Below are positions 8,076 to 60,969 of a DNA stretch of 64,000 bases, piece by piece. The DNA comes from Thermomicrobium sp. 4228-Ro. Lineage in GTDB: Bacteria; Chloroflexota; Chloroflexia; Thermomicrobiales; Thermomicrobiaceae. Below the pieces are notes generated by a model. The model did no database searches. It had not been told where the DNA came from and saw only the letters and a list, made by a program, of their open reading frames with translations. The stretch is taken from positions 868,001 to 932,000 of the forward strand of contig NZ_JAPFQM010000001.1 in assembly GCF_026241205.1 (NCBI RefSeq). The letters run 5' to 3'. A program made the position numbers and the translations under genes. Numbering within the stretch: position 1 is the first letter of the stretch; each line of letters opens with the position of its first letter.

Positions 8076-8582
8076 TTGCCCGAGCGCCTCTCGATCGGCC
8101 GGATCGTCGGTGCGCATGGTGTTCGGGGAACGGTCAAGCTCCGCATCTGGACGCACTTTCCCGAGCGGATACCCGAACTCGACCACGTCTACCTCGACGA
8201 GGAGCCGACACCGCGTCGCCTGCTTCGCGCCCAGCTCGTGGGCGACATGGCACTCCTCCAGATCGAGGGTATTTCGACACGCAACGACGCTGAGGCCTTG
8301 CGCGGTACGGTGGTGCGGATCGACCGGAGCCAGGCAGCTCCGCTCGGGGAGGACGAGTATTATCACTTCGAGATTCTCGGTCTCCGGGTCGTCGACGAGA
8401 CAGGGAACGACCTCGGCACGGTCGTCGAGATCCTCGAAACGGGCGCGAACGACGTCTACGTCGTCCAGCAACCGGACGGCAGCGAACTTCTGCTTCCGGC
8501 TATCCGCTCGGTGATCCTCGAAGTCGACCTCGAGCGTCAGCGCCTGGTCGTTCGCCCACCGCAGTATTACGGTGAAGAGTGA
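8076..8582 (+). CDS. rimM: 16S rRNA-processing protein RimM
   Basis: 168 aa from TTG 8076, the usual length. It assists maturation of the 30S head and binds S19. The N-terminal domain contains [18 protein letters not shown], and the C-terminal PRC-barrel part has [11 protein letters not shown] and [12 protein letters not shown] was chosen because the family begins right there and it follows the khpA stop by one base; no good ATG is near. Its 3' end overlaps the convergent hisIE by 16 bases. Confidence 0.92.
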
Positions 8583-43810: not shown

Positions 43811-43820
43811 GGAGGCAGCT

Positions 43821-46748: not shown

Positions 46749-46977
46749 GAATCGTCCGCTGCATGCCGGCCGTCTGGGATGAGGGTGCTGTGAGACTGTC
46801 TTCGCATCATGGATCTCAACATCGCCAAAGCGTGGCGGAAGGCGAGGAGCGCACGGCGCGCGAAAGTCGGCCGATGCAGCTGCCGTTCGGTGACGACTGG
46901 ACCGACGGCGCGTGACCACTCGAGCCGGAGCGGGGCGCGAGTGCACGGCACGAGTGGTCGGATCAAGAGGAAACCCG
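46749..46977. other. Intergenic region upstream of tusA
   Basis: 229 bases without a convincing gene. An ATG at 46809 opens a 59-codon frame, but it lacks a ribosome binding site and a recognisable product. No terminator with a T-run follows the molybdoenzyme gene, so readthrough into the next operon is possible. Confidence 0.4.
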
Positions 46978-47006
46978 TTGACGGTTGACCAGTCAGCTGA
47001 TATACT
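46978..47006 (+). promoter_or_regulatory. Promoter of the sHdr-LbpA operon
   Basis: TTGACG at 46978-46983, 17-base spacer, TATACT at 47001-47006. Start expected near 47013, about 75 bases before tusA. Confidence 0.7.
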
Positions 47007-47043
47007 GAGGGCGAATCCCACTGTTGGGTTTGGGGCAGATGAG

Positions 47044-47066
47044 GGGTACTGTACCCGAGTAGGGTG
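47044..47066 (+). promoter_or_regulatory. Candidate operator for the CsoR-family repressor (site B)
   Basis: Perfect inverted repeat GGGTAC-T-GTACCC (47044-47056) overlapping TACCC-GAGTA-GGGTG (47052-47066), in the leader of tusA. It contains ACTGTACCCG, shared with the site at the csoR promoter. TACCC/GGGTA half sites are the usual form of CsoR-family operators. Confidence 0.5.
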
Positions 47067-47086
47067 CAAGCAGAGGAGACGACGGC

Positions 47087-47329
47087 ATGGCGGACGTGTT
47101 GCAGCCGGACCGGGTGCTCGATTGCAGCGGTCTACTCTGTCCGCTTCCGGTCATCCGGACTTCCAAAGCGATCAAGGAGATCGCGATCGGTCAGGTGCTG
47201 AAAGTGATCGCGACCGATCCCGGTGCGCCTGCCGACATGGAAGCGTGGGCACGCCAGACTGGGAATGAGCTCCTCGATGCCCACGAGGAAGATGGCAAAT
47301 ATGTCTTCTTCTTCCGACGCGTGCGCTAG
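47087..47329 (+). CDS. tusA: TusA-family sulfur carrier protein
   Basis: 80 aa. Carries sulfane sulfur as a persulfide on the conserved Cys (C18 in LLCPLPVIRT; C13 is extra). Begins the 19-gene sulfur operon. In sHdr organisms TusA hands sulfur to DsrE-type proteins and then to LbpA. ATG is preceded by AGAGGAGACG. Confidence 0.93.
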   Translation: MADVLQPDRVLDCSGLLCPLPVIRTSKAIKEIAIGQVLKVIATDPGAPADMEAWARQTGNELLDAHEEDGKYVFFFRRVR

Positions 47330-47347
47330 TGGCGAGAGGAGGGAACC

Positions 47348-47869
47348 ATGGCCCGCCGCGATCCAGAAGCACCCCGACGTCTCGCCATCATCGCGAGCAA
47401 GGGAACGCTCGACTTCGCCTATCCCCCCTTCATTCTCGGGTCGACCGCTGCCGCGATGGGCTGGGAGGTCGGGATCTTCTTCACCTTTTATGGGTTACCG
47501 CTGCTCCTCCGCAATTACGAGCCGAAGGTGAGCCCGCTCGGGAACCCGGCCATGCCGCTCAAGATGCCCTTCGGCCCGCCAGCCTTGCGCGAGGTCTCCT
47601 GGCCGATCCCCGCGCTCGTCGAAGCGCTGCCCGGTTTTTCGCATCTGGCAACGACGCTCATGCAGCAAACCTTCAAGGAAAAGGGAGTGCCGTCGCTCCT
47701 CGAGTTACGGCAGTTGTGCATCGACGCTGGCGTCAACCTGATCGCTTGTCAGATGACGATGGACGTTTTCGGCTTCAAAAAGGAGGACTTCATCCCCGAA
47801 TGCACCGTCGGCGGTGCAGCGACGTTCCTCGAGTTCGCCGCCGACGCCGATGTGTCGCTCTTCATCTGA
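47348..47869 (+). CDS. dsrE3A: DsrE3A-like sulfurtransferase
   Basis: 173 aa. DsrE/F-like fold protein of the kind that follows tusA in sHdr clusters. FILGSTAAAMGWEVGIFFTFYGLPLL is the fold's core; the persulfide-carrying Cys is probably C134 in LIACQMTMDVFG, with C124 and C152 nearby. It should exchange sulfur with TusA. GAGGAGGGAACC precedes the ATG. Confidence 0.85.
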   Translation: MARRDPEAPRRLAIIASKGTLDFAYPPFILGSTAAAMGWEVGIFFTFYGLPLLLRNYEPKVSPLGNPAMPLKMPFGPPALREVSWPIPALVEALPGFSHLATTLMQQTFKEKGVPSLLELRQLCIDAGVNLIACQMTMDVFGFKKEDFIPECTVGGAATFLEFAADADVSLFI

Positions 47870-47890
47870 CGGCCGGTGGAGGAGCCAGGC

Positions 47891-48274
47891 ATGAGCGAGG
47901 AGACCAAGAAGATCCTCTACGTCCAGACCCACGGCGTGGATACACCGGAGCGGAGTGCCACCCCCTTCTTTCTGGCAGCGGCTGCCGCAGCCATGGAAAT
48001 CGAGGCTGCCATCTACTTCACGATGAACGGACCGACGCTCCTCAAGAAGGGTGTGCCGGAAACGTTGGTCGTCCCGAAAGCCGGGGGCGGAGGGGCGAAG
48101 CTCAAGCACTTCATCGACCAGGCGCTCGATCTCGGTGTCAAGCTCTACGTGTGCCAACCCTCTCTCGACCTCCACGGCCTCACCATGGACGACCTGATCG
48201 ACGGCGTGCAGATGATCGGTGGCGCAGCCTTCAACCTGATGGCGCTCGAAGCGGATGCAGTGGTGGCGTTCTGA
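47891..48274 (+). CDS. DsrE-family protein, second paralog
   Basis: 127 aa from ATG 47891 (GGAGGAGCCAGGC upstream; GTG 47876 would sit in the site itself). The DsrE-like fold is seen in FFLAAAAAAMEIEAAIYFTMNGPTLL, with a single Cys C88 in LYVCQPSLDLHG. Likely relays sulfur between DsrE3A/TusA and the lipoate-binding proteins. Its stop overlaps the next ATG by one base. Confidence 0.82.
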   Translation: MSEETKKILYVQTHGVDTPERSATPFFLAAAAAAMEIEAAIYFTMNGPTLLKKGVPETLVVPKAGGGGAKLKHFIDQALDLGVKLYVCQPSLDLHGLTMDDLIDGVQMIGGAAFNLMALEADAVVAF

Positions 48275-48759
48275 TGTCGCGCGGTACGCCCGCTTACGCG
48301 ATCGTGCACAGCTGCATCCTCCCGCTCGACCTCTTCTACCGCGTCGAGCACCACCAGTGGGTGCGGGTGGAGACTGATGGCGTCGTCACGCTCGGTTACA
48401 CCGATGTCGCGCAGACGGTCGCAGGACGGATCCTCCACGTTACGTTTCGCCCCGCCGGTCGCTCGTATGCCCGCGACGCGACCGTCGCTGTTGTCGAGAG
48501 CGCTAAGTGGCTCGGTGCCTTTCGCACGCCGATCGCTGGCGAACTCGTGGAGACGAATGCCGCTCTCCTCGCCGATCCGGAGTTAGTCAACCGCAGCCCC
48601 TATCGGCGCGGCTGGCTCGTCCGGATGGTACCGGAGCAGCTGGAACGTGACCTGGCCGGGCTGCTCACCGGGCAGGACGCTGTCGTGGCCTACGATGCCT
48701 TGATGACCCGTCGTCACCTCGATGACTGTGTCCACTGTGAGGGGTACGAGTTGCCATGA
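48274..48759 (+). CDS. lbpA: Lipoate-binding protein LbpA, paralog 1
   Basis: 161 aa, GcvH-like fold. Lipoyl Lys is K78 in VESAKWLG (ESxKW in place of the GcvH ESVKA motif). The N-terminus has C14 (HSCILPLDLFY) and the C-terminus ends with a CxxC pair (DDCVHC). LbpA holds the sulfur intermediate on lipoate for the Hdr-like complex. It lies between dsrE and hdrC1, as expected for LbpA. A glycine-cleavage H-protein is less likely: the context is sulfur and the motif differs. Confidence 0.87.
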   Translation: MSRGTPAYAIVHSCILPLDLFYRVEHHQWVRVETDGVVTLGYTDVAQTVAGRILHVTFRPAGRSYARDATVAVVESAKWLGAFRTPIAGELVETNAALLADPELVNRSPYRRGWLVRMVPEQLERDLAGLLTGQDAVVAYDALMTRRHLDDCVHCEGYELP

Positions 48760-49025
48760 CGCGCTTGCGGCTCTTCACGCACCCGATCTGTCACGGCTGC
48801 ACCGAGGCTGTGGCGGTCATCCAGCAGCTAGCGAGCGAGGAGCCGTCGCTCGTCGTCGAAGTGGTCAGCCTGGCAACGCCCGCGGGCCGGGCAGCAGCAC
48901 AGGAAGCCGGAGTCGTCGTCGTGCCGACGGTGGTGATCGACGGCGAGCGGATCGAGGGTGTCCCGGACCTCGAGGAACTCCGGGCTCGTCTCCGCGCGAC
49001 CAGTCGAACAGGAGGTCGACCGTGA
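48756..49025 (+). CDS. Thioredoxin/glutaredoxin-like small protein
   Basis: 89 aa. Thioredoxin fold: LRLFTHPICHGC with the CxxC at C12-C15 (CHGC), then VVVVPTVVIDGERIEGVP containing the cis-Pro. Overlaps lbpA upstream (ATGA) and hdrC1 downstream (GTGA). It could reduce the CxxC tails of LbpA or lipoamide; this is inference. Confidence 0.8.
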   Translation: MTRLRLFTHPICHGCTEAVAVIQQLASEEPSLVVEVVSLATPAGRAAAQEAGVVVVPTVVIDGERIEGVPDLEELRARLRATSRTGGRP

Positions 49026-49726
49026 GTGCCGTGACCTGGAGCCCGACCAAGAGCGGACAGCGATACGCGGACGTTCCGGAAGCGGAAAAGCGGGCGCTCT
49101 TCGAGGAAGTGAAGAGCGATCCCCGGTATCCGGACTTTTTGTACGGCTGCTACGAGTGTGGCATCTGCGTGTCCGCTTGCCCGTCGGCTCGTTTCTACGA
49201 CTTCAGCCCCCGGGTCATCGCCCAAGCCCTCGCGCGCGAGGACGTCGATCGCTTCTATGAGATTCTCATGGAAGATATCTGGAACTGTGCGCAGTGTTTC
49301 TCCTGCGTCCGTTGTCCACGCGGCAACAATCCGGGTGGGCTCGTCACCCTCATGCGCGAGGTCGCTGTCCGGCATGGGCTGGAGCGTGCCCAGCAAGCGC
49401 TCCAGGGGTATAGCCGGGTGATCTACAAGATCATGCTCAAAGGCAACCAGGTCTCTCCCGACATGCTGCAGCCGGACTTCTTCCCCGACTGGGGTCCCTG
49501 GGTGCGCGAGTTCAGCCGCAACATGGCCGCTTGGCGCAAGGCGATCCCGGTCGACACCTTGCGCAACGTCACCGACGCCGCCTGGCGGACCGACGACAAG
49601 ACCCTCCGTGAACTCTACAGGATCTGGTTCGAGACCGGGAACATGGAGGTGATCCGCGAGGTCGACGAAGGCCTCTACGAACTGCTGGTCGAGATCATGG
49701 AAGAAGAACTGGAGGCAGGGTCATGA
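49022..49726 (+). CDS. hdrC1: sHdrC1, Hdr-like [4Fe-4S] subunit C
   Basis: 234 aa from GTG 49022. Two cluster motifs: C43-C46-C49-C53 (CYECGICVSACP) and C89-C92-C95-C98 (CAQCFSCVRCP). The remaining C-terminal half is helical. HdrC1 passes electrons from the catalytic B subunit. Its stop overlaps the next start. Confidence 0.9.
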   Translation: MSAVTWSPTKSGQRYADVPEAEKRALFEEVKSDPRYPDFLYGCYECGICVSACPSARFYDFSPRVIAQALAREDVDRFYEILMEDIWNCAQCFSCVRCPRGNNPGGLVTLMREVAVRHGLERAQQALQGYSRVIYKIMLKGNQVSPDMLQPDFFPDWGPWVREFSRNMAAWRKAIPVDTLRNVTDAAWRTDDKTLRELYRIWFETGNMEVIREVDEGLYELLVEIMEEELEAGS

Positions 49727-50940
49727 GCGAGCAGATGATCCCCCTCACGGAAATCCGCGAGAAGAAGGCACGTGGCGTCCGTCCGAGCCCCGAGGAGGCA
49801 CCACATCCCGACCTCCGCGAGGAACTGTTCGAGCTGGAGGCCCGCGGCGAGCTGATCGTCCAGCGCGTTCCCGAACCGTACGTGGAAGTCACGACCAAGT
49901 TCGGGCGGACGAAGAAGGTCCCGATCGATCATTTGTGGCATCATAAGTCGTGCGGTCAGTGTGGTCACATTCCAGGCTATACGACATCGATCCTCTGGCT
50001 CAACCGGCAGTTCGGGATCGACTACCTCGATCCGACCGATCAGACGTCCTGCACCGGTTGGAACTACTACGCCTCGGCGACCTCCAATGCGGTGGCGCAG
50101 CTCTTGGTGATGTGCCGCAATTTCGCCGCAGCCTACGAGACCGGCTACTATCCGTTGATCCACTGTGGAACGAGTTACGGCCACTACAAGGAACTGCGCG
50201 AGCAGCTGGTGCACCACAAGGAGTTGCGCGACCAGGTGCGTCGCGTCCTCGACAAGCTCGGGAAGCCGCTCGTCGTCCCGGAGGAGATCGTCCACTACAG
50301 CGAATGGGTGCACGTGATGCGGCACCGGATCGCCGAGCGGCAGGTCATCGACATGCGCGGGATCACGGCCTGCGTCCATCCAGCCTGCCATTACTACAAG
50401 ATCGTCGCCGAGGACGCGATCTACGACCCGGATATCTACGGCGGCCAACGGACCGCCACGGTCACGGCGCTCCTGCAAGCGCTCGGGATTACCGTCGCTG
50501 ACTACTCGACCTGGTTCGATTGCTGCGGCTTCGGTTTCCGCCACATCCTCGTCCAGCGTGACTTCACGCGCTCCTTCGCTGTCCTCCGCAAGATCGAGGT
50601 CATGAAGGACGAGGCGAACCCGGACATGACTGTCACGCACGATACCGGTTGCGTGACGACGCTCGACAAGAGCCAGTTCGCAGCCCGAGCCCATCAGCGC
50701 CGAGTCGGCGTGCCAGTTCTGGCGGACTCCCAAGTCGCGGCACTTGCCATGGGTGCCCATCCTTTCCGGGTCCTCCAACTGCACTGGCACTCCACCGACT
50801 GGCGTCCGCTTCTCGAGAAGCTGGGCATCGATTGGCAGAAGTACTGGGCCGAGTTCGAGGAGGACCTGGCTGCGATCGAACGCGGCGAGAAACCCGGCCT
50901 GACCTGGGAAGATGCCGAACAGCCGATCGCGATGCGGTGA
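49723..50940 (+). CDS. hdrB1: sHdrB1, Hdr-like CCG-domain catalytic subunit
   Basis: 405 aa. A CCG-domain protein for a noncubane iron-sulfur cluster. The second motif is complete: C217, C222, C267-C268 (FDCCGFG) and C310. The first shows C77, C80, C110, C131, C148, with SCTG in place of CCG, so the first Cys of that motif is Ser. In sHdr, B1 works with HdrA and HdrC1 on LbpA-bound sulfur. A 70-residue N-terminal extension precedes the domain. Confidence 0.9.
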   Translation: MSEQMIPLTEIREKKARGVRPSPEEAPHPDLREELFELEARGELIVQRVPEPYVEVTTKFGRTKKVPIDHLWHHKSCGQCGHIPGYTTSILWLNRQFGIDYLDPTDQTSCTGWNYYASATSNAVAQLLVMCRNFAAAYETGYYPLIHCGTSYGHYKELREQLVHHKELRDQVRRVLDKLGKPLVVPEEIVHYSEWVHVMRHRIAERQVIDMRGITACVHPACHYYKIVAEDAIYDPDIYGGQRTATVTALLQALGITVADYSTWFDCCGFGFRHILVQRDFTRSFAVLRKIEVMKDEANPDMTVTHDTGCVTTLDKSQFAARAHQRRVGVPVLADSQVAALAMGAHPFRVLQLHWHSTDWRPLLEKLGIDWQKYWAEFEEDLAAIERGEKPGLTWEDAEQPIAMR

Positions 50941-50952
50941 GGAGGGAAGGCT

Positions 50953-52020
50953 GTGCAGGACACGATGCGACCGATCCTGGTCATCGGCGGTGGCCCGGGA
51001 GGGCTCGAAGCGGCACGCACGGTCGCCGCGCTCGGTCACCCCGTCGTTCTGGTCGAGCGCCGGCAGCGCCTCGGCGGCACGCCGGATGCCGAGCGCTACG
51101 CGAAGCTCACCCATCACTTCCGCGATGCCGAGGAGGCGATCGGCGAACTGGTCGCCAGTGTGACGGAAAATCCGCTCGTCGAGATACTGACCAGAAGCGA
51201 AGTCACCGGTTGCGAAGGAGAACCGGGTCATTTCCGCGTCACACTCACCACACCCTCGGGGGCACAGGAGCGAGTGTTCGGTGCGATCATCGTCGCTACG
51301 GGCTTCCAGCACTTCGACCCCGGTCGCGAGACGCAGCTCTATAACTACTACTCGTTTCCCGACGTCGTGACCCTGAGCGATATGGAAGCGATGCTCAAGG
51401 CGCACCAGGTCGTGCGCCCCTCCAATGGGCAGCCTCCGGAGCGCGTCGCCTTCATCCAGTGCGTCGGCTCGCGCGACCGGCAGATCGGGAACGAGTTCTG
51501 TTCGAAGGTCTGTTGTGGTATCGCCTCGAAGCAGGCGATCGAAATCAAGCAACAGCTGCCGGATGCGCGTGTCTTCATCTTCTATATCGACATGCGCATG
51601 TACGGCTACTGGGAAAACGAGCTGTATTGGCCCGCGCAAGAGCAATACAAGGTCAATTACGTGAAAGGGATCGTCAGCGAGATCCTGCCCAAAGGGGATC
51701 GGCTCCTCATCCGTGGTGAGGACACGACGATGGGCCGGCCGATGGAGGTCACTGTTGACCTCGTCGTCCTCTCGGTCGGTATGGAACCGAGCAGTGGCAC
51801 GCGCCAGATGGCCAAGTTGCTCGGGCTGGCGCAGAACAAGTACGGCTACATCGAGGCTGGGGGTCCGACAGGGCTCGACCCGGTCGCGACTTCCCGACCC
51901 GGCATCTTCGTCGTCGGTGCCGCGGCACGGCCCGCTGATCTGGACGATACCTTCGCGACGGCAGGGCTGGCCGCGGCACGGGCCATCGCGACCGTTCGAC
52001 AGGCAGCGGTGGTCCGATGA
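50953..52020 (+). CDS. hdrA: sHdrA, FAD-containing Hdr-like subunit
   Basis: 355 aa, GTG start with GGAGGGAAGGC upstream. N-terminal Rossmann motif GGGPGGLEAA with E35 for the FAD ribose, and one [4Fe-4S] set C170, C183, C187-C188 (CVGSRD, FCSKVCCG). The short length, without the ferredoxin domains of methanogen HdrA, marks it as the sHdr type. It is the electron hub between B/C subunits and acceptors. Confidence 0.9.
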   Translation: MQDTMRPILVIGGGPGGLEAARTVAALGHPVVLVERRQRLGGTPDAERYAKLTHHFRDAEEAIGELVASVTENPLVEILTRSEVTGCEGEPGHFRVTLTTPSGAQERVFGAIIVATGFQHFDPGRETQLYNYYSFPDVVTLSDMEAMLKAHQVVRPSNGQPPERVAFIQCVGSRDRQIGNEFCSKVCCGIASKQAIEIKQQLPDARVFIFYIDMRMYGYWENELYWPAQEQYKVNYVKGIVSEILPKGDRLLIRGEDTTMGRPMEVTVDLVVLSVGMEPSSGTRQMAKLLGLAQNKYGYIEAGGPTGLDPVATSRPGIFVVGAAARPADLDDTFATAGLAAARAIATVRQAAVVR

Positions 52021-52079
52021 AGCTGGACAGTCACGACACCCGGGTGAGGACGGACCATCGACGAGGGAGGTGGGACAGC

Positions 52080-52325
52080 ATGGCTACACCGAAGAGTCAG
52101 AATCCGTTCGTCGCCTTCATGGCGAGCGGTGCCGGTCGCCTGCTCCGCGCTGTCGCCGGAGTCGTGCTCATCCTCATCGGGCTCCTCGTCGTGAAAGGGA
52201 CGTGGGGCTGGGTCCTGACAGTTGTCGGGCTCGTTCCGCTCGCGGCCGGGCTGTTCGACTTCTGCTTGCTCGGACCCCTGTTCGGAGCCGGTTTCTGGGG
52301 GCGGGATATCCGGCGCGCCCGGTAG
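52080..52325 (+). CDS. Small DUF2892-like membrane protein
   Basis: 81 aa from ATG 52080 with GGGAGGTGGGACAGC upstream. Two membrane helices, LLRAVAGVVLILIGLLVV and WVLTVVGLVPLAAGLFDFC, and a Cys in FDFCLLGPLFG, like the YgaP rhodanese membrane tail and related DUF2892 proteins. It sits between hdrA and hdrH. It might bring sulfane sulfur or the Hdr-like complex to the membrane; function is unproven. Confidence 0.75.
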   Translation: MATPKSQNPFVAFMASGAGRLLRAVAGVVLILIGLLVVKGTWGWVLTVVGLVPLAAGLFDFCLLGPLFGAGFWGRDIRRAR

Positions 52326-52335
52326 GAGGGAGCCG

Positions 52336-53130
52336 ATGAAACAGCCGAGTCGCCCCAGCCATCTCATCAAGCCGAAGACCGGTCCGGAGGATCCGGAGTT
52401 GCAGGAGACCCTGCTCGAGGGTCTCGGGCAGGTCGCGCCGGACGACGTGGAAGCGATCGCCACCGAACTCGCGGCGCGGCGCGAGCGATTGGCCCCACTC
52501 GTGGATGCCGTGACCAGCGGCGGAGCAGGAGAACCCGACTTCTGGCATGAGCTGACCCGGGCAGTGACCGCAACAGCACGCCAGGCGGAGGCACTGTGCG
52601 ATCCAGCAGCAAGCGAGCGCACACGTGCAGCTCTGCCATTGCTCGTCGCGGAAGGAATGCCCGTGGAGGAGCGCCTCGAAGCGTTCATCGCGCGTTGTGG
52701 CCTCGATACTCGGTTGGCTCTCGAACTCGCCACGGGCGTGCTTCACCTCCGAGCCCCCTGGCATTACTGGCTGTGGACCCGCTGGCTTTGGGACGCCCGC
52801 TATGGCACCGGTATCCTGCCGCTGCTGGCCTCATCGAGTCATGCCCTGGAGGGGCAGAGCATCGGTGTCCAGTATCGTCAGTTGCGTCCGCTCATTGCCT
52901 TAGGGGCCGAGTTGGGGCGCAACAGTGGGCTGATCTGCGCCGACCTCGCTGACGATCCCCATATCGGTCCCTTCGCGACAGATGCATTCCTCGCTATCGC
53001 CTACAGCGTCTATCTGTACGGGATCACCAACTGGCGCTTGAGTCGGGAGTTCAACCGGTTGCTGCCATCGGTGCCGCAGCTGGCACGACGCTTGCTCGGT
53101 TTACCCAAGCTCGCTGAGTCTCGGCCATGA
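52336..53130 (+). CDS. hdrH: sHdrH, conserved helical protein of sHdr clusters
   Basis: 264 aa, mainly helical, no cofactor motif. Placed after hdrA and before the second HdrC/B unit, the usual place of the hypothetical gene found in sHdr loci. WHYWLWTRWLWDARYGTG and LYGITNWRLSREFN are Trp/Arg-rich stretches. TAGGAGGGAG precedes the ATG. Role unknown; probably structural in the complex. Confidence 0.72.
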   Translation: MKQPSRPSHLIKPKTGPEDPELQETLLEGLGQVAPDDVEAIATELAARRERLAPLVDAVTSGGAGEPDFWHELTRAVTATARQAEALCDPAASERTRAALPLLVAEGMPVEERLEAFIARCGLDTRLALELATGVLHLRAPWHYWLWTRWLWDARYGTGILPLLASSSHALEGQSIGVQYRQLRPLIALGAELGRNSGLICADLADDPHIGPFATDAFLAIAYSVYLYGITNWRLSREFNRLLPSVPQLARRLLGLPKLAESRP

Positions 53131-53142
53131 GAGGAGTCAGCG

Positions 53143-54444
53143 ATGGACCCCAGCCTGGAGAAGGTGCAAGAAGTCTGGGAACGTGAAACAGCGATCGTCG
53201 AAGGGGTCGATATTTCCGGCCCCTGGAACCGGATGTTCGGACAGCGGGTGATCTGGGACTACACCCCTGACCTCATCGAGGAGATCGCCCAGCTTCCCGG
53301 CGGCGAGTCGTTCGCCTGGTGCTACCAATGCGGCAAGTGCGTCCCGGTCTGTCCGGTCGATGTCGTGGGCGACTATGGCCCGCGCAAGTTGTACCGTCGG
53401 GCACAGACAGGGATCAGTCTCCTCGATTCGCCCGATCTCTGGCTGTGCACGACCTGCGCCAACTGCCTGCGGGTCTGCCCGAAGCAAGTCGATATGATCC
53501 AGATCATGCCGGCGGCGCGCGAACAGGCGATGCTGAGCGGTCGATCGATTCCCGCCGAGCTCCAGGAGGCGCTCGAGAACACCGCGAAGTACGGGAACCC
53601 GCTCGGCCAGCCGGCACGAAAGCGCGAAGCGTGGGTCAAGGACGCCGGCGTGCCGGTGCCGATCCTGCACCAGATTCAGCGCCCGGTGGAGTGGTTGTGG
53701 TGGGTCGAATGTTACCCCTCGTATCACCCGCGCGGGATCGACGCCTCCATCGCGCTCGCTCGCATCTTCCACGCTCTCGGTCTCGATTTCGCCATCCTCG
53801 GTCGTGAGGAGAAGTGCGCGGGCGATTCTCAGCGGCTGGCTGGTGAGCGCGGTCTCTTCGAAATGCTGGCGGAGGAGAACATCCGCACGCTGTCCAAGTA
53901 TGAGTTCCAGCACATCGTCGTGACTGACCCGCATGCGCTCAATGCCTTCCGCAAGCACTATCCGAAGTTCGGTGGTCACTACGACGTCTGGCACTATACG
54001 ACGCTCCTGGCCCGGGAACTGCCGCGTTTGCGACCGCTGTTGACGCGAGCGCTCCCGTACCGTGTGACCTTCCACGACCCCTGTTATCTCGGACGGCACA
54101 ACGGTGAGTACGATGCGCCGCGCCAGCTCATCCAAGCGCTGCCGGGTGTGGAATTCGTCGAAATGCTGCGCTGTCGTGAGAACTCCTACTGCTGCGGTGG
54201 CGGTGGTGGCGGGATGTGGCTGGACAGCTTCGCAGCCGGTCGCCAGCGGCGGCGCCTCTCCGAAGAGCGCGTTCTCGAAGCGGTGAGCACCGGTGCCGAC
54301 ACGCTGGTGGTGTGCTGTCCGTACGAAGTCTCACGCTTCGAGGATGCTGTCAAGGCCACCGGCAACGAGGGACGGCTTCAGGTGCGCGATATCGCTGAAC
54401 TACTCGCCGAGGCGATGGGGCTGAGCGGGGAGGCAGCAGAATGA
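53143..54444 (+). CDS. Fused HdrC2-HdrB-like protein (HdrD-type, sHdrB3)
   Basis: 433 aa. N-terminal two [4Fe-4S] motifs (C60, C63, C66, C70 and C102, C105, C108, C112), then one C-terminal CCG domain (HDPCYLG, YCCGGGGG, CCPYE). It replaces separate hdrC2 and hdrB2 genes, the arrangement that goes with etfAB in type II sHdr loci. It should accept electrons from LbpA or HdrA and hand them to EtfAB, encoded next with a 4-base overlap. Confidence 0.85.
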   Translation: MDPSLEKVQEVWERETAIVEGVDISGPWNRMFGQRVIWDYTPDLIEEIAQLPGGESFAWCYQCGKCVPVCPVDVVGDYGPRKLYRRAQTGISLLDSPDLWLCTTCANCLRVCPKQVDMIQIMPAAREQAMLSGRSIPAELQEALENTAKYGNPLGQPARKREAWVKDAGVPVPILHQIQRPVEWLWWVECYPSYHPRGIDASIALARIFHALGLDFAILGREEKCAGDSQRLAGERGLFEMLAEENIRTLSKYEFQHIVVTDPHALNAFRKHYPKFGGHYDVWHYTTLLARELPRLRPLLTRALPYRVTFHDPCYLGRHNGEYDAPRQLIQALPGVEFVEMLRCRENSYCCGGGGGGMWLDSFAAGRQRRRLSEERVLEAVSTGADTLVVCCPYEVSRFEDAVKATGNEGRLQVRDIAELLAEAMGLSGEAAE

Positions 54445-55208
54445 CCATCGCAGTCATTCTCGAGCAGGTTCCGGACGTTGTCGAGGAACTGGAGATCGCA
54501 CCCTCGGGAACCGATCTCGACCGGGATACCGTGACCTACGTGCTGAACGAGTACGACGATCATGCGCTCGAGGAGGCTCTCCTGCTGGCCGAAGCGAGCG
54601 GGGACACCGTCGTCGCGATCGGTATCGAGACGACAGGCGAGATCGACCAGGCCCTCTATACCGCGCTGGCCAAAGGCGCACACCGTGCCATCAAGCTGGT
54701 GGGCGACTTCGAGGGAAGCTGGCTGAGCACGCGGGCGACCGCCGAACTGCTCGTCCCGGTGCTGCGCGACCTCGCGCCGCAGCTCGTCCTGACCGGCGTG
54801 CAAGCGCCTGACGACCTCGACGGTCAGCTGGCACCAACGCTCGCTGCCCTGCTCGACTGGCCGCACGCCAGCGTGGTGATCGGTACCGAGTTCGCCAACG
54901 GGCACGTGCGGGCACGCAAGGAACTGTGGGGCGGCATGACACTCACCGTTGAGTTCGTACCGCCCGCAGTTCTCGGTATCCAGGCTGCTCGCCAAGCACC
55001 GCGCTACGTACCGGTGAGCCGTGTTCGGCAGGTCATGCGGGAGGCGACGATCGAAGAAATCGAGGTCGCGTTGCCACCCCATGCCTCCATCACGGTCGAA
55101 CGCCTTTATGTGCCGGAAGCATCAGGCCAAGCTGAGCTCCTCACGGGAAGCCCAGCCGAGATCGCCGATCGCATCCTCGAACTCTTGCGTACGCGCGGAC
55201 TGCTGTGA
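54441..55208 (+). CDS. etfB: Electron transfer flavoprotein beta subunit
   Basis: 255 aa. EtfB fold: IAVILEQVPDVVEEL, LNEYDDHALEEALLLAEA, LTGVQAPDDLDGQLAPTLAALLDWP and EVALPPHASI. ATG overlaps the upstream stop. Within an sHdr operon it carries electrons from the Hdr-like complex. Confidence 0.92.
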   Translation: MTIAVILEQVPDVVEELEIAPSGTDLDRDTVTYVLNEYDDHALEEALLLAEASGDTVVAIGIETTGEIDQALYTALAKGAHRAIKLVGDFEGSWLSTRATAELLVPVLRDLAPQLVLTGVQAPDDLDGQLAPTLAALLDWPHASVVIGTEFANGHVRARKELWGGMTLTVEFVPPAVLGIQAARQAPRYVPVSRVRQVMREATIEEIEVALPPHASITVERLYVPEASGQAELLTGSPAEIADRILELLRTRGLL

Positions 55209-55223
55209 GCGAGGAGGGAGACG

Positions 55224-56189
55224 ATGGGCCAGCGAATCGTCGTTCTCGTCGAACACCTGGCAGGCGAAGCGACCGACGTCACCTATGAGCTGCTGGGCCT
55301 TGCGCGTCGCATCGCCAATGCCGACGGTGCGGTGGTCGAGGCGGTGGTCCTCGGCGAAGCGGTCGGCCACTTGGCGGAGCGTCTGCCAGCCGATCGCGTT
55401 CTCCTCCTCGAGCACCCATCGCTCCACTTCCTGGCCCCGGAGCCGGCTGCACGAGCGCTGGCTCACGTACTCGGGAGTACCCCACCGCGGTTGACCATCG
55501 TCCCCAACACCTCACTGGGGATGGACGTCGCAGCCTGGGTCGCCACACGCCTGGGGTGGCCGCTCATCAGCTACTGCCGAGCACTGGAGCACCGGGATGG
55601 CCGCTGGGTAGCGACCGCGCAGCTCTTCGGTGGAAAGATCCTGGCTGACGTCCCGCTCGGTGATGAGCCGAGCGTCGTGGCCATACTCGCCGGAGCCTTC
55701 TCGGCTGACGCGGTCGAGCCCGGATCCCCGGGAACGATCGAACGGGTCGCTGCACCTGCAGAACTCGAGCAGCTCCGGAGCCGGGTCGTCGCGCTCGAGC
55801 GCCCGGAAGCAGCCGACGTCGATATCACACGGGCGGAAAAGATCGTCGCGGTCGGGCGAGGTATCGAGAGCAAAGACAACGTGGAACTAGCCGAACAGCT
55901 GGCGCAGGCACTCGGTGCCGTCCTCGCTGCCTCGCGCCCGCTCGTCGATGCTGGTTGGTTGCCGCGCTCACGCCAAGTAGGGAAATCGGGACTCAAGGTC
56001 AAACCGAAGCTGTACATGGCGCTCGGTATCAGCGGCGCTCCCGAACATCTCGAGGGGATGAAGGACGCTGAACTCATCATCGCGGTCAACAAGGATCCGA
56101 AGGCACCGATCTTCACGGTCGCCGACTATGGAGCGGTCGCTGACCTGTTCGACGTTGCCGAGGCGCTGCTCGAGCGACTGGAGGGTTGA
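55224..56189 (+). CDS. etfA: Electron transfer flavoprotein alpha subunit
   Basis: 321 aa. C-terminal FAD domain with SRPLVDAGWLPRSRQVG, KPKLYMALGISGAPEHLEGM and IIAVNKDPKAPIF. GTG-free ATG start 15 bases after etfB. The partner of the membrane oxidoreductase encoded next. Confidence 0.94.
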   Translation: MGQRIVVLVEHLAGEATDVTYELLGLARRIANADGAVVEAVVLGEAVGHLAERLPADRVLLLEHPSLHFLAPEPAARALAHVLGSTPPRLTIVPNTSLGMDVAAWVATRLGWPLISYCRALEHRDGRWVATAQLFGGKILADVPLGDEPSVVAILAGAFSADAVEPGSPGTIERVAAPAELEQLRSRVVALERPEAADVDITRAEKIVAVGRGIESKDNVELAEQLAQALGAVLAASRPLVDAGWLPRSRQVGKSGLKVKPKLYMALGISGAPEHLEGMKDAELIIAVNKDPKAPIFTVADYGAVADLFDVAEALLERLEG

Positions 56190-56193
56190 ACCT

Positions 56194-58230
56194 GTGCTGA
56201 GTACACCGGAACGGCTGGCGTTCGTTCTCCTCGCCCTGACCTCGCTCCTGCTGGCGGCCCACGGGGTCTCTCGCATCGTGCGTGCGATCGGACGCGGGTA
56301 TGGGCGACCGCGCTGGTCGCTGTTCGTGCGGCGGGTGGTTCCGGTGAGCATCGACATCCTGCTGCAGCGGCCGATCTTCCGAACTCGTCCGCTCGTGAGC
56401 CTGCTCCATGCTGGCGTCTTCTTCGCATTTGTCTTTTACGGTCTCGTGAACGTGCTCGATCTCCTGGAGGGGTTCACGGGATTCACCACGCTCCATCGTG
56501 GCGGTCTGTTCGCGGCCTATAACCTGGTCGCCGATCTCCTGAGTGTCGCTGCTCTCGCCGGCATGCTCGGTCTCCTGTTTCGCCGGTTCGGCCTACGACC
56601 GTTCCGCTTCAACGAGCGCGTGCTGCTCCTGCCGAGCGTTCGCTTCGGGATCGCGCGTGACTCCGCCATTGTCGGCGGTTTCATCCTGCTCCATGTGGGA
56701 TCGCGCTGGATCGGTCAGGCGGTGCGCATCGCCGAGAGTGGTCAGCCTGACTGGAGCCAGCCGACAGCGAGTGTCGTCGCGACACTGTTCGACCGGTGGT
56801 CACCGGAATCGTTGACGGTGGCGAGCCATGTGACCTGGTGGCTCGCGCTCGGGCTCATCTTGGCATTCCTCCCCTATTTCCCGTACTCGAAACACATCCA
56901 CCTCTTCATGGCACCGATCAACTTGATCCTCCGGGAAGAGCGCCCGCTCGGCCAACTCGAGCCACCGGTTGCCCGCGATGGTCAGCTGGGAGGCGAACGC
57001 CTCGAGCAGTTACGCTGGTTCCAGCTCCTCGATGCCTACGCCTGCATCATGTGCAACCGGTGCCAGGATGTCTGCCCGGCACACGGTACTGGTCGGTCAC
57101 TCAGCCCAGCGGCACTGGAAATCAACAAGCGCTACTACTTGAACCGGAACCTCGCAACCTTCGCTGGCGGTACGAGTTCTCCCCCTCTGCTCGAGATCGT
57201 GACCTCGAAAGATGCGGTCTGGTCTTGCACTACGTGTGCTGCCTGCGTTCGCATCTGCCCGGTCGGCAACCGTCCCATGCTCGACCTCATCGATATCCGG
57301 CGAGCACTGATCAGCCAAGGGGATCCGCTCGATCCGAACCTGCAGGCAGCACTCGAGAGCTTGGCACGCTACGGGAACTCGTTCGGCAGGCCGGCTCGTC
57401 AGCGAGCCCGCTGGGCTAAGGAACTATCCTTCCCGATCAAGGATGCGCGGAAGGAGCCGGTCGAGTATCTCTGGTTCGTGGGCGACTTCGCCTCGTTCGA
57501 CCCCCGCATGCAGGAGAATACGAAGACGGTCGCCCAACTTTTCCACGTAGCCGGACTCGACTTCGGCTTACTCTACGAGGACGAACGGAACGCGGGGAAC
57601 GATGTCCGCCGGGTCGGCGAGGAAGGACTGTTCGAACTCCTCGCCGAACAGAACCTCCGCGCGTTCGAGAAAGCGCAGTTCCGCGCCATCGTCACGACCG
57701 ATCCGCACAGCTACAACGCGCTCAAGAACGAGTATGCGGCCTTCGGCTTCTCGGTACCGGTCTACCACTACACGGAACTCTTGGCTGAGCTGTTGGAGTC
57801 CGGCCGCTTACCGCTTCGGCGAGCGGTCGATGCTGCCGTGACCTATCACGATCCTTGCTATCTCGGCCGCTACAACCGGATCACTGCCGCGCCGCGGCGC
57901 ATCCTGCGTGCGCTCGGTGCCGATCTGCGGGAGATGCCGCGCCATGGTGAGAATACCTACTGCTGTGGTGCCGGTGGTGGGCAGATCTGGATGGACAGTG
58001 GCGGGCAGGAGCGACCGAGCGAGCAACGGATCCGCGAAGCGGTGAGCCTGGGTGAGGACGTCCGTTACTTCGTCGTCGCCTGTCCCAAGGACATGGCCAT
58101 GTACAGCGATGCGGTCAAGACGACCGGCTACGAGGGACGCCTCGTCGTCACCGATATCGCGCGCCTGGTGGCGGCCGCCGTCGGACTCGAAGGAGCGACG
58201 ACCCCAACAGTGGCGCAGGAGGTCTCGTGA
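56194..58230 (+). CDS. Membrane ETF:(methyl)menaquinone oxidoreductase-like protein (EMO)
   Basis: 678 aa from GTG 56194 with GGAGGG upstream. Five membrane helices (about 5-27, 66-92, 108-130, 156-178, 208-232) of NarI-like type with His residues (H23, H72, H167, H212, H234) for haem b. Then C284, C287, C290, C294 and C345, C348, C351, C355 for two [4Fe-4S] clusters, and a C-terminal CCG domain (HDPCYLG, YCCGAGG). It couples EtfAB to the menaquinone pool. Its soluble half resembles the fused HdrC-HdrB at 53143, so the two genes may share ancestry. Confidence 0.86.
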   Translation: MLSTPERLAFVLLALTSLLLAAHGVSRIVRAIGRGYGRPRWSLFVRRVVPVSIDILLQRPIFRTRPLVSLLHAGVFFAFVFYGLVNVLDLLEGFTGFTTLHRGGLFAAYNLVADLLSVAALAGMLGLLFRRFGLRPFRFNERVLLLPSVRFGIARDSAIVGGFILLHVGSRWIGQAVRIAESGQPDWSQPTASVVATLFDRWSPESLTVASHVTWWLALGLILAFLPYFPYSKHIHLFMAPINLILREERPLGQLEPPVARDGQLGGERLEQLRWFQLLDAYACIMCNRCQDVCPAHGTGRSLSPAALEINKRYYLNRNLATFAGGTSSPPLLEIVTSKDAVWSCTTCAACVRICPVGNRPMLDLIDIRRALISQGDPLDPNLQAALESLARYGNSFGRPARQRARWAKELSFPIKDARKEPVEYLWFVGDFASFDPRMQENTKTVAQLFHVAGLDFGLLYEDERNAGNDVRRVGEEGLFELLAEQNLRAFEKAQFRAIVTTDPHSYNALKNEYAAFGFSVPVYHYTELLAELLESGRLPLRRAVDAAVTYHDPCYLGRYNRITAAPRRILRALGADLREMPRHGENTYCCGAGGGQIWMDSGGQERPSEQRIREAVSLGEDVRYFVVACPKDMAMYSDAVKTTGYEGRLVVTDIARLVAAAVGLEGATTPTVAQEVS

Positions 58231-58694
58231 ACAGCAGCGCACGGTTGGCTCACGAATTGGCGATGCGCTTCCGCGTCGTGGCTCGCGCCCTCGATCGGCT
58301 CGATCGCTTGGAAGGCGAGCGTACATTTGCGGGCTGGCTCCAACAGGTGGGAGAGCGCCCGGATGTGCTTCGGGCAATCAGCGAGGCCTTGCTCCGCCAG
58401 ACACTGCACGCCGCGAGCGGTGACGTGAACCTCGCGCTGTTGCGCCAGCTCCGACTCGATGAGGCGGCACCCCTCGCGACGCTTGCCGGAGCGGTCGGCC
58501 TCGACCGGCTCGCGCTCTACCTTCGCTTGGGGGAACTGGCGCATGCGGGCCTGGTGACGCTGGAGCTGGAGCGGGAGGCGGCACGCCTCACCTCGCTCGG
58601 CGAAGCGACGCTGGCTTGGCTCGACGAAGTCCTGCGCTGCACGGAGGAACGGATCGCGGAGTGGTTGGAGCTGGTACGGAGCACTCAACCATGA
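58227..58694 (+). CDS. Winged-helix-like protein of the sHdr operon, unknown
   Basis: 155 aa, GTG start overlapping the upstream stop (GTGA). The C-terminal 70 residues (PLATLAGAVGLDRLALYLRLGELAHAGLVTLELE) look like a winged helix-turn-helix domain; the N-terminal part is helical and Leu/Ala/Arg-rich. No ligand residues are visible and no Cys except one in LRCTEE. It could regulate the operon or be an adaptor. I do not recognise a family. Confidence 0.65.
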   Translation: MNSSARLAHELAMRFRVVARALDRLDRLEGERTFAGWLQQVGERPDVLRAISEALLRQTLHAASGDVNLALLRQLRLDEAAPLATLAGAVGLDRLALYLRLGELAHAGLVTLELEREAARLTSLGEATLAWLDEVLRCTEERIAEWLELVRSTQP

Positions 58695-58975
58695 GCACGC
58701 AGTGCCCATATTGCGACCTGTGCACCGATCGCAGCACGCTCCATGCCCATCTCGCCGAGGAACATGGCGATCGGCTCGCCTTCAGCTGGCACGAGCGTTC
58801 CGGTTATGCCATCGCGACGGTGACGTGTCCGATCTGTGGCGCGAGCTGGGATCAGCCGTTGCGCAAGGCCCGACGCGATCCACGCTTTCTCGACGAGTTC
58901 GCGTACGAGATCAGGCTCGTCCTGTTCGATTTGCTTCTCCATCACATCCGCGGGGAACACGAAAAGGGAAGGTGA
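58691..58975 (+). CDS. Small C2H2-type zinc-finger protein, unknown
   Basis: 94 aa, ATG overlapping the upstream stop. C5-x2-C8-x11-H20-x4-H25 fits a C2H2 zinc finger, and C46-x2-C49 (CPICG) may be a second half site. The rest is helical. It lies directly before lbpA paralog 2. I do not recognise the family; Zn binding is inferred from spacing. Confidence 0.65.
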   Translation: MSTQCPYCDLCTDRSTLHAHLAEEHGDRLAFSWHERSGYAIATVTCPICGASWDQPLRKARRDPRFLDEFAYEIRLVLFDLLLHHIRGEHEKGR

Positions 58976-58983
58976 GGCGGAGG

Positions 58984-59421
58984 ATGACGGAGATCCGTGG
59001 CTGCTCGATTCCCGAGGATCGCTATTACTGGCCCGAGAAACACGTCTGGGCTCGCCCAGAGCCCGACGGGACAGTGACGATCGGCATCACCGATGTCGCG
59101 CAGCACCTGGCGAAGACGATCATCAGTGTGACACCGCGCGGGGTTGGACGCAAGGTGCAGCGCGGCAAGAGTGCCGGGACGCTCGAGAGTGGTAAATGGG
59201 TGGGGCCAGTCACCTCGCCCATTTCTGGGGAGATCGTCGCCGTCAATGAGGCAGCGATCGCCGATCCGAAACTCCTGAACGAAGACCCGTACGGGGCAGG
59301 CTGGTTCGCGCGCCTGCGCCCGGACGATTGGGAAAACGAGTCGAAGCTACTCCTGACCGGCCAAGAGGCCGTCGAAGCCTATCGTCAGGTGCTCGAGCAA
59401 GAGGGGATCTCGTGCACGTGA
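58984..59421 (+). CDS. lbpA: Lipoate-binding protein LbpA, paralog 2
   Basis: 145 aa. Lipoyl Lys is K71 in LESGKWVG; the fold includes TIGITDVAQHLAKTIISVTP and ISGEIVAVNEA, as in GcvH. The N-terminus has C7 (RGCSIPEDRYYWP) and the C-terminus ends SCT with a single Cys. GGCGGAGG precedes ATG 58984. Overlaps paralog 3. Confidence 0.87.
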   Translation: MTEIRGCSIPEDRYYWPEKHVWARPEPDGTVTIGITDVAQHLAKTIISVTPRGVGRKVQRGKSAGTLESGKWVGPVTSPISGEIVAVNEAAIADPKLLNEDPYGAGWFARLRPDDWENESKLLLTGQEAVEAYRQVLEQEGISCT

Positions 59422-59882
59422 GCCTCATCGAGTCGACCCGTGTCTACCGCGGCTGTGTCATTCCACTCGACCTCCTCTACGATGTCGACCGCGACGTTTG
59501 GGTCCGTCTCGAGGGCGAGGTAGCGACGCTCGGCATGACCGACCCGGCCCAAACGAGAGCCGGCAAGCTGGTCGCGATTCGTTTCCGGCGCCCTGGTACC
59601 GTCGTCGAGCAGGGACGCGCGCTGGCGACGATCGAAAGCGGCAAATGGGTTGGCCCGTTCCCCGCACCGTTTCGTTGCGAAATCGTCGAGACCAACCAGG
59701 CTGCATTCGAGCGCGATATGCTCATCGCCAATCGCGATCCGTATGGCGATGGATGGTTAGTACGGGTACGCCCGCTCGCTCCCGAACAGCTCCAAGAGCT
59801 CGTCACCGGGGAGGAAGCGTTCGCGCGCTATCAGAAGCGGATCGATCAGCTCGACCTCCATTGCTTCCGGTGCGCAGAGTGA
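59412..59882 (+). CDS. lbpA: Lipoate-binding protein LbpA, paralog 3
   Basis: 156 aa. Lipoyl Lys is K78 in IESGKWVG. Like paralog 1 it has an N-terminal CVIPLDLLY segment and a C-terminal CxxC pair (HCFRC), not seen in GcvH. GTG 59412 has GAGGGG at good spacing; GTG 59418 (GTGA overlap with the upstream stop) is possible. Paralogs 1 and 3 look most similar, paralog 2 is more like the standard H-protein. Confidence 0.87.
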   Translation: MHVSLIESTRVYRGCVIPLDLLYDVDRDVWVRLEGEVATLGMTDPAQTRAGKLVAIRFRRPGTVVEQGRALATIESGKWVGPFPAPFRCEIVETNQAAFERDMLIANRDPYGDGWLVRVRPLAPEQLQELVTGEEAFARYQKRIDQLDLHCFRCAE

Positions 59883-59895
59883 GAAGGAGCGTCGC

Positions 59896-60969
59896 ATGCG
59901 TCTCCGTGTGGTCGATCTCGGCCTGGTCAGTCCTGTCCGCTCGCAGAGCGTGTACCATGCGGTCGGGTACGCCTTCCACCGGGAGACCCCTCCGACGATC
60001 CTGCTCGTTTCGACGACGTCACCGTACGTCTCGATCGGGTTCCATCAGGATGCCGAGCGGGAAGTCGATCTCACCTACTGTCAGCGCGAGGGACTGCCGG
60101 TGATCCGACGTGAGGTCGGCGGGGGTGCCGTGTATCTCGACCACAATCAAGTCTTCACCCAATGGATCTTTCCCCGTGACCTCGTACCACTGCGGCTGGA
60201 AGAGCGTTTCGCCTGGTACGTGCGTCCACTGATCGAGACCTACCGGCAGTGGGGCATCGACGCCACCTGGCGACCGATCAACGACATCCACGTGCGCGGG
60301 CGCAAGATCGGTGGAACGGGAGCAGCCAGCATCGGTGAGGCAGAAATCCTCGTCGGTAGTTTGATGCTCGACTTCGATACGCAGCGCATGTCGCGTGTCC
60401 TCAAGGTCGCGTCCGAGAAGATGCGCGACAAGCTGTTCGAAAGTCTCGAGGAATACATGACGACCATGCGTCGGGAACTCGGCACGCTCCCGGATCGCGA
60501 TGCGGTCGTGCACACCTATCTGGAGTGCTGCGCGGCCTGGCTCGGAGCTGAACTCGAGGTCGGATCGCTGACGCCGGACGAAGAAGCGATAGCAGCGGAA
60601 CTCGATGAGCGTTTCGCCTCCGAGGAATGGCTGTATCAGAAGGGTGGACTCCGTCAGCCAGGAATCACGATCCAGGCTGACGTCCGCCTGCACGAAGCAG
60701 CCCTCAAGGTGCCAGGCGGTCTCATTCGCGTCATCGTGCGCACGCACCGCGGTCGCATCGACGACGTCAGCATCAGCGGCGACTTCACGCTGCTTCCCGC
60801 GCTCGGGCTGGCCGCGATCGAACAGGCACTCCGTGGTTTGCGTGCGCGGCGCGAGGAGCTGGCCGCTCGGGTCCGCGAAGTCTATCGCGCGCTCGGTCTC
60901 CAGTCCCCCGGTGTGAGTGCGGACGATTTCGCAGCTGCCGTCATGCTCGCGCTGGAGAGCAGGAGCTGA
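59896..60969 (+). CDS. lplA: Lipoate-protein ligase, LplA with C-terminal accessory domain (sLpl)
   Basis: 357 aa. Activates lipoate or octanoate and attaches it to the LbpA lysine. RREVGGGAVYLDHNQ is the substrate-binding motif and K137 in GRKIGGTGAA the catalytic Lys; the C-terminal 100 residues form the LplB-type domain. GAGAAGGAG precedes the ATG. sHdr loci use such a ligase (sLpl) together with lipoyl synthases LipS1/LipS2; those two are not encoded in this window, while lipA/lipB are. Confidence 0.88.
   Translation: MRLRVVDLGLVSPVRSQSVYHAVGYAFHRETPPTILLVSTTSPYVSIGFHQDAEREVDLTYCQREGLPVIRREVGGGAVYLDHNQVFTQWIFPRDLVPLRLEERFAWYVRPLIETYRQWGIDATWRPINDIHVRGRKIGGTGAASIGEAEILVGSLMLDFDTQRMSRVLKVASEKMRDKLFESLEEYMTTMRRELGTLPDRDAVVHTYLECCAAWLGAELEVGSLTPDEEAIAAELDERFASEEWLYQKGGLRQPGITIQADVRLHEAALKVPGGLIRVIVRTHRGRIDDVSISGDFTLLPALGLAAIEQALRGLRARREELAARVREVYRALGLQSPGVSADDFAAAVMLALESRS

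Follow-up and report, generated by a model that had tools for sequence, protein, structure and literature searches.

Type II sHdr systems have been defined by the genes shdrC1B1AH, a fused shdrB3 and etfAB in one cluster, and in the available text of that work the definition lists no zinc-finger or winged-helix gene (PMC11582611). The regulators met in the accessible sHdr literature, in searches that did not use winged-helix itself as a query, are the ArsR-type sHdrR and SoxR, and for SoxR a requirement for two cysteines is described in the part of PMC11582611 consulted. In Thermomicrobium roseum, the cluster trd_0160-0142 consists of 19 genes (hdrABC, etfAB, tusA, dsrE1, dsrE2, three lbpA and "various hypothetical proteins") and, according to the sections available, rises about 45-fold on average when nutrients are limiting (PMC6776052). 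In the literature searched, the running text of open papers, no zinc-finger accessory protein is mentioned for sHdr clusters, and neither "zinc" nor "zinc finger" appears in the accessible text of PMC6067878, PMC10332631, PMC12423496, PMC6776052, PMC4378227 or PMC12345210.

The window analyzed here is a stretch of 64,000 nucleotides from Thermomicrobium sp. 4228-Ro, in which an sHdr operon spans 47087-60969, from tusA to lplA, and is counted as 19 genes. It contains shdrC1B1AH, a fused shdrB3 and etfAB (the etf labels are presumed from the sequence) in a single syntenic cluster, so that the full type II core lies in one gene run with lbpA and lplA, as in a type II sHdr-LbpA cluster. Unlike the published type II definition, so far as its text was available (PMC11582611), the operon has both a winged-helix gene (WH) and a zinc-finger gene (ZnF). 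Compared by description rather than gene by gene, this operon and T. roseum trd_0160-0142 have 19 genes each and the gene list fits; counterparts of WH and ZnF would then be among the hypothetical proteins of the T. roseum cluster, as that cluster is described in the text consulted (PMC6776052), and from the order of genes might be trd_0146 and trd_0145. An earlier note on this DNA had placed the pair in the sHdr operon and outside the known sHdr models; the first holds, and neither gene was found in the portion of the sHdr literature that could be searched. The features of the operon are collected in Table 1.

Table 1. Features of the sHdr operon in the window, in order along the forward strand.
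Feature	Position	Strand	Description
Operon head	47087-49025	+	tusA, two dsrE, lbpA0, glutaredoxin-like ORF
tusA	47087-47329	+	
dsrE	47348-47869	+	
Second dsrE	47891-48274	+	
lbpA0	48274-48759	+	
Glutaredoxin-like ORF	48756-49025	+	
shdrC1	49022-49726	+	
shdrB1	49723-50940	+	marker of the sHdr system in genome searches
shdrA	50953-52020	+	
YgaP-like gene	52017-52325	+	small transmembrane protein; between shdrA and H
H (Hyp) gene of the sHdr core	52336-53130	+	start read by eye; without Pfam match
shdrB3	53143-54444	+	fused HdrC/HdrB-like; mark of type II sHdr
etfB	54441-55208	+	presumed from sequence reading
etfA	55224-56189	+	presumed from sequence reading
EMO	56188-58230	+	predicted membrane Fe-S/CCG quinone oxidoreductase; start approximate; name presumed from the earlier note's label
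WH	58227-58694	+	155 aa; predicted ArsR-like winged helix with added N-terminal helix
ZnF	58691-58975	+	94 aa; two predicted zinc sites (C5/C8/H20/H25 with H18; C46/C49/H85/H90)
lbpA1	58984-59421	+	GcvH-like lipoate-binding protein
lbpA2	59406-59882	+	second lipoate-binding protein; start approximate
lplA	59896-60969	+	lipoate-protein ligase

Several other features of the region were observed. Upstream of tusA, 46970-47086 holds a sigma70-like promoter together with a leader block that includes GGTACTGTACCCGAGTAGGGTG and is a candidate operator; the block with GGTACTGTACCCGAGTAGGGTG is kept in four Thermomicrobium loci and has an altered form in two sister-genus loci. Directly upstream of the operon, 42272-46748 encodes a 4Fe-4S/NrfD fusion and a molybdopterin oxidoreductase, possibly a sulfite-oxidizing enzyme that would take the sHdr product. 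The YgaP-like gene has a match in each of the six loci of the same family in which this position is covered (L083, L084, L086, L087, L088, and L094), with no match in L089, L090, or L095. The glutaredoxin-like ORF, between lbpA0 and shdrC1, was read by eye as an 89-residue glutaredoxin/thioredoxin-like protein and has no Pfam match at 1e-6.

Both reading frames between EMO and lbpA1 are real genes, as first proposed, and are conserved at one fixed position in two phyla. WH starts with the GTG at 58227 and the EMO stop ends at 58230, giving a shared GTGA, and ZnF starts with the ATG at 58691 in an ATGA that it has in common with the WH stop. Two of the 4-base overlaps originally described therefore stand, and the third, between ZnF and lbpA, is doubtful: in the window it would require a start at GTG 58972, whereas homologues and the Shine-Dalgarno sequence favor ATG 58984 as the most likely start of lbpA1, 8 bases after ZnF. 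An overlap of 4 bases between ZnF and lbpA does exist in L083, L084, L085 (from coordinates), and L086. WH has a strong Shine-Dalgarno sequence of its own (AGGAGGT) and ZnF has little of one, which is consistent with translational coupling.

The homology and neighborhood search suggested in the earlier note was carried out with the question of whether homologues mostly lie away from sHdr loci. They do not: all 31 confident ZnF homologues (the window, L083-L090, L104, L124-L140, and L168-L171, every one inspected) are in sHdr loci of Chloroflexota and Methylomirabilota, as a single copy between EMO and lbpA1, and no searched genome contains a second confident copy. In the class, ZnF matches at E up to 0.001 were obtained in 11 of 158 genomes, nine of them confident and two weak and unrelated; a profile search of the phylum, in a set of genomes that overlaps the first, found ZnF in 24 of 400, all confident. 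The phylum of the Rokubacteria locus L104, which we take to be Methylomirabilota in GTDB usage, has ZnF with confidence in 5 of 95 genomes and one further partial relic. A genome-contig scan returned nine ZnF loci, of which L104 was new; its two narrow patterns were drawn from nine sequences and overlooked, among others, the f19 type, so that the scan cannot show absence from other phyla. G048 and G044 (E 2.5e-4 and 9.8e-4) were rejected as ZnF homologues, their matches being short and lying in a larger CPxC protein whose surroundings contain no sHdr gene.

Among 34 assembled EMO-lbpA1 junctions, 31 have ZnF, two lack it with EMO followed directly by lbpA1 (L095, genome G020, and L162, genome G361), and one has a relic (L172, genome G562); most of these junctions were found through the ZnF search, so the count speaks for the position and not for the frequency of ZnF. 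Twenty of the 34 also have WH, always in company with ZnF, which occurs alone at 11. The 13 junctions without WH are those of nine f19 loci (L124-L130, L134, and L137), L133, L104, L095, and L162, and the WH of L172 is a relic. In that Methylomirabilota locus, 8366-8538 holds the WH-ZnF relic in place as two short frames joined by an ATGA overlap, in which the ends of WH and the ZnF C-terminal helix are retained. Other genes move around the ZnF loci, for example lplA and HdrC1 in L131. An extra FAD/NAD-type oxidoreductase-like ORF, read by eye, lies between EMO and WH in L169 (2781-3935) and is truncated in L170, and the Methylomirabilota loci L104, L168, L171, L172, L197, and L198 have about 1.2 kb extra between shdrB3 and etfB.

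An independent search with HdrB1 shows near-perfect co-occurrence of ZnF with sHdr in Chloroflexota. Strong HdrB1 matches (E below 1e-100) were found in 11 of the 158 class genomes, nine of which have ZnF; as for the other two, the contig of G120 ends inside WH and G020 lacks ZnF. In the phylum, HdrB1 (E up to 1e-60) is present in 24 of 400 genomes and ZnF in 23 of these, G361 being the exception, and in G215, the sole genome with ZnF but no HdrB1, the contig begins inside the operon. Seven of the 95 Methylomirabilota genomes have HdrB1, three of them with ZnF; ZnF was not found in G581, G592, G593, and G594, whose contigs stop before the junction, while G576 and G577 have ZnF in loci cut before HdrB1.

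The pair had been described as inserted between EMO and lbpA, a view that the distribution does not bear out. In the HdrA tree (midpoint-rooted, without support values), ZnF-less loci nest among carriers, L095 beside Thermomicrobiaceae and L162 beside L131/L139/L140, and the relic L172 groups with L198 and L200. The history was taken from this tree because the concatenated tree is flawed by a paralogous HdrBC2 row in L085, L132, L133, L138, L169, and L170, where the true gene is off the contig. Since both genes are also found in several deep branches, an ancestral cassette with losses appears to fit better than insertion, loss being simpler than repeated insertion. A phage, plasmid or other mobile origin was rejected, as PHROGs matches are weak (best E 0.039) and no plasmid record matches ZnF at E 0.01. 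A scan of viral contigs with one pattern found none that encodes a ZnF relative, and a plasmid search with HdrBC2 returned only records below 60% identity, none covering 80% of the query.

ZnF has the 94 residues and the C2H2 motif originally reported, together with a second site that had been overlooked. Site 1, C-x2-C-x11-H-x4-H with an extra histidine between (C-x2-C-x9-H-x-H-x4-H), is present in 31 of 31 homologues. Site 2 is split, C46-x2-C49-x35-H85-x4-H90, and is present in 30 of 31; L088 has a tyrosine in place of the last histidine, and L131, L139, and L140 have H-x3-H spacing. Sixteen columns are invariant across the 31 sequences, including C5, C8, H18, H20, H25, C46, C49, and H85, and both sites are predicted to bind zinc. 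The most conserved part of the protein is the C-terminal helix, residues 71-90 (mean commonest-residue share 0.75). The first finger (CPYC..H..H) resembles the tandem C2H2 domain zf-Di19 (PF05605), a family hit by 25 of 27 homologues with E no higher than 0.01. The window protein, however, aligns with zf-Di19 at residues 3-27 alone, differs from it by a long insertion in its second finger, and scores 25.8 bits against a Pfam cut-off of 27.5. A Pfam scan at lax limits gave many sub-threshold zinc-ribbon names, which were not used. The structural model of ZnF is a confident one (pLDDT 89, pTM 0.79) but has no confident match among PDB structures (best Foldseek E 0.12; best VIA Z 4.0, rmsd 4.2, 75 aligned), and PDB sequence searches gave nothing useful (best profile E 0.021); the missing match is not proof of a new fold. 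All 27 members measured have a pI of 5.0-6.6, which does not suggest the role of a DNA binder. Between the window and the nine f19 loci, ZnF identity is 52-57%, compared with 47-52% for EMO, 36-43% for EtfB and 62-69% for LbpA1, so ZnF is about as well conserved as core subunits.

WH is not equivalent to ZnF: ZnF is nearly universal and well conserved, while WH is optional and fast-evolving (56% identity between the window and L083, against 77% for ZnF and 90% for LbpA1). Its winged-helix character was recognized from the start, and the model (pLDDT 94) predicts an ArsR-type winged helix extended by an additional helix at the N-terminus. The best structural matches are HlyU, NolR, CzrA, SqrR, and BigR, with Z from 10.7 to about 9 (HlyU 4ooi, Z 10.7, rmsd 2.3, 93 aligned; NolR 4omz, Foldseek E 4.6e-4), together with CadC, and the predicted fold would be that of the ArsR/SmtB repressors, such as HlyU, SqrR, BigR, and sHdrR. 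Because of this fold, and because ArsR-type repressors serve type I sHdr clusters in the available text of PMC12423496 and PMC11582611, the chief rival explanation is that the pair controls transcription of the operon locally, WH as a repressor of the ArsR family and ZnF as its C2H2 partner, in the role that sHdrR has in type I. The leader block with GGTACTGTACC, conserved upstream of tusA, and the more typical recognition-helix sequence of WH in L168-L170 are in keeping with such a regulator, which we nevertheless regard as unlikely on the following grounds. WH differs from ArsR/SmtB repressors in its extra N-terminal helix, its helix-turn-helix (HTH), which is incomplete in some members, its position in the middle of the operon and its cysteines, none of which is conserved (0-2 per member, 16 counted), so that the two conserved cysteines of sHdrR/SoxR-type regulators are missing. 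The HTH part is a gap in 3 of the 20 WH members (L131, L139, and L140), and the window protein scores 17.4 bits for HTH_20 against a curated cut-off of 27; of 16 homologues, 7 hit this family with E no higher than 0.05. Conservation is higher in the N-terminal helix (R14, R24, L25, and E29; mean commonest-residue share 0.66) than in the predicted recognition helix (0.53), and this, with the HTH gaps, makes DNA binding by WH less likely. The protein is also acidic (pI 4.5-5.5 in 16 members). A regulatory pair is further at odds with the 11 of 31 loci that have ZnF without WH, and with a mid-operon position from which both genes rise with the operon, whereas shdrR and soxR transcripts of Hyphomicrobium were unchanged in the part of the study available (PMC11582611). 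In the 18 genomes searched with a WH profile, off-locus matches were weak (best 9.5e-6), as expected of generic HTH proteins. G032 (E 8.8e-5) was rejected as a WH homologue, since the match lies inside a long open frame that resembles another protein.

The reading that we favor, at somewhat less than even confidence, is that WH and ZnF make up a module accessory to type II sHdr that has so far been overlooked, in which (i) ZnF would be an adaptor or assembly factor; and (ii) WH would be a co-opted helper with an ArsR fold. ZnF, a small soluble protein folded round two predicted zinc sites, would be dedicated to the EMO/LbpA module, where electrons exit the system; at EMO, the membrane oxidoreductase, it would hold or load either the lipoyl carrier LbpA or the sHdr-ETF complex. 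WH is probably no longer a classical DNA-binding repressor and may aid ZnF in the lineages that keep it. We infer these partners and the adaptor role of ZnF from its constant position, its near-complete co-occurrence with sHdr, and the strong conservation and acidity of the protein, which point to a structural or assembly role at EMO/LbpA; taken by itself, the position would also suit a regulator or a maturation factor. The absence of ZnF from G020 and G361, which keep the operon, and its relic in G562 indicate that some lineages can do without the function or replace it. A bolder form of the proposal, possible in our view and held with more reserve, makes ZnF a hitherto undescribed core subunit of the type II sHdr systems of Chloroflexota and Methylomirabilota. 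It would be a C2H2 protein with two zinc sites that serves for protein docking rather than DNA binding and links the lipoyl carrier with the quinone oxidoreductase in the membrane, the repressor-fold protein having become its structural partner.

ZnF could instead serve as a maturation factor, acting on the lipoylated carriers or on the Fe-S clusters in EMO; it might, for instance, be a chaperone handing apo-LbpA over to LplA. The gene order, in which lbpA1 always adjoins ZnF and lbpA2 and lplA are often next, is what such a factor would lead one to expect, yet lplA is often apart from the ZnF-lbpA1 pair (L126, L127, and L131), in G361, which lacks ZnF, both lbpA and an lplA-like gene are kept, and in the systems studied LbpA is lipoylated in vitro by sLpl(AB) ligases, as the accessible text of PMC10332631 describes; we consider this explanation improbable. 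That WH and ZnF are chance neighbors carried along by inheritance of the operon, without a role in sulfur oxidation, is very improbable: the genes can be lost (G020, G361, and G562), but they hold one position in two phyla, 16 columns are invariant in the 31 ZnF sequences, and no confident ZnF copy was found elsewhere in any searched genome.

As a small gene found almost without exception between the membrane oxidoreductase and the carrier, ZnF provides a direct handle on the route by which electrons and lipoyl-bound intermediates leave type II sHdr. Its T. roseum counterpart is probably within the cluster most strongly induced during persistence under nutrient limitation, as reported in the part of that study consulted (PMC6776052). 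ZnF can also serve to mark off this branch of type II sHdr, and it exemplifies C2H2-like zinc sites within a bacterial metabolic operon.
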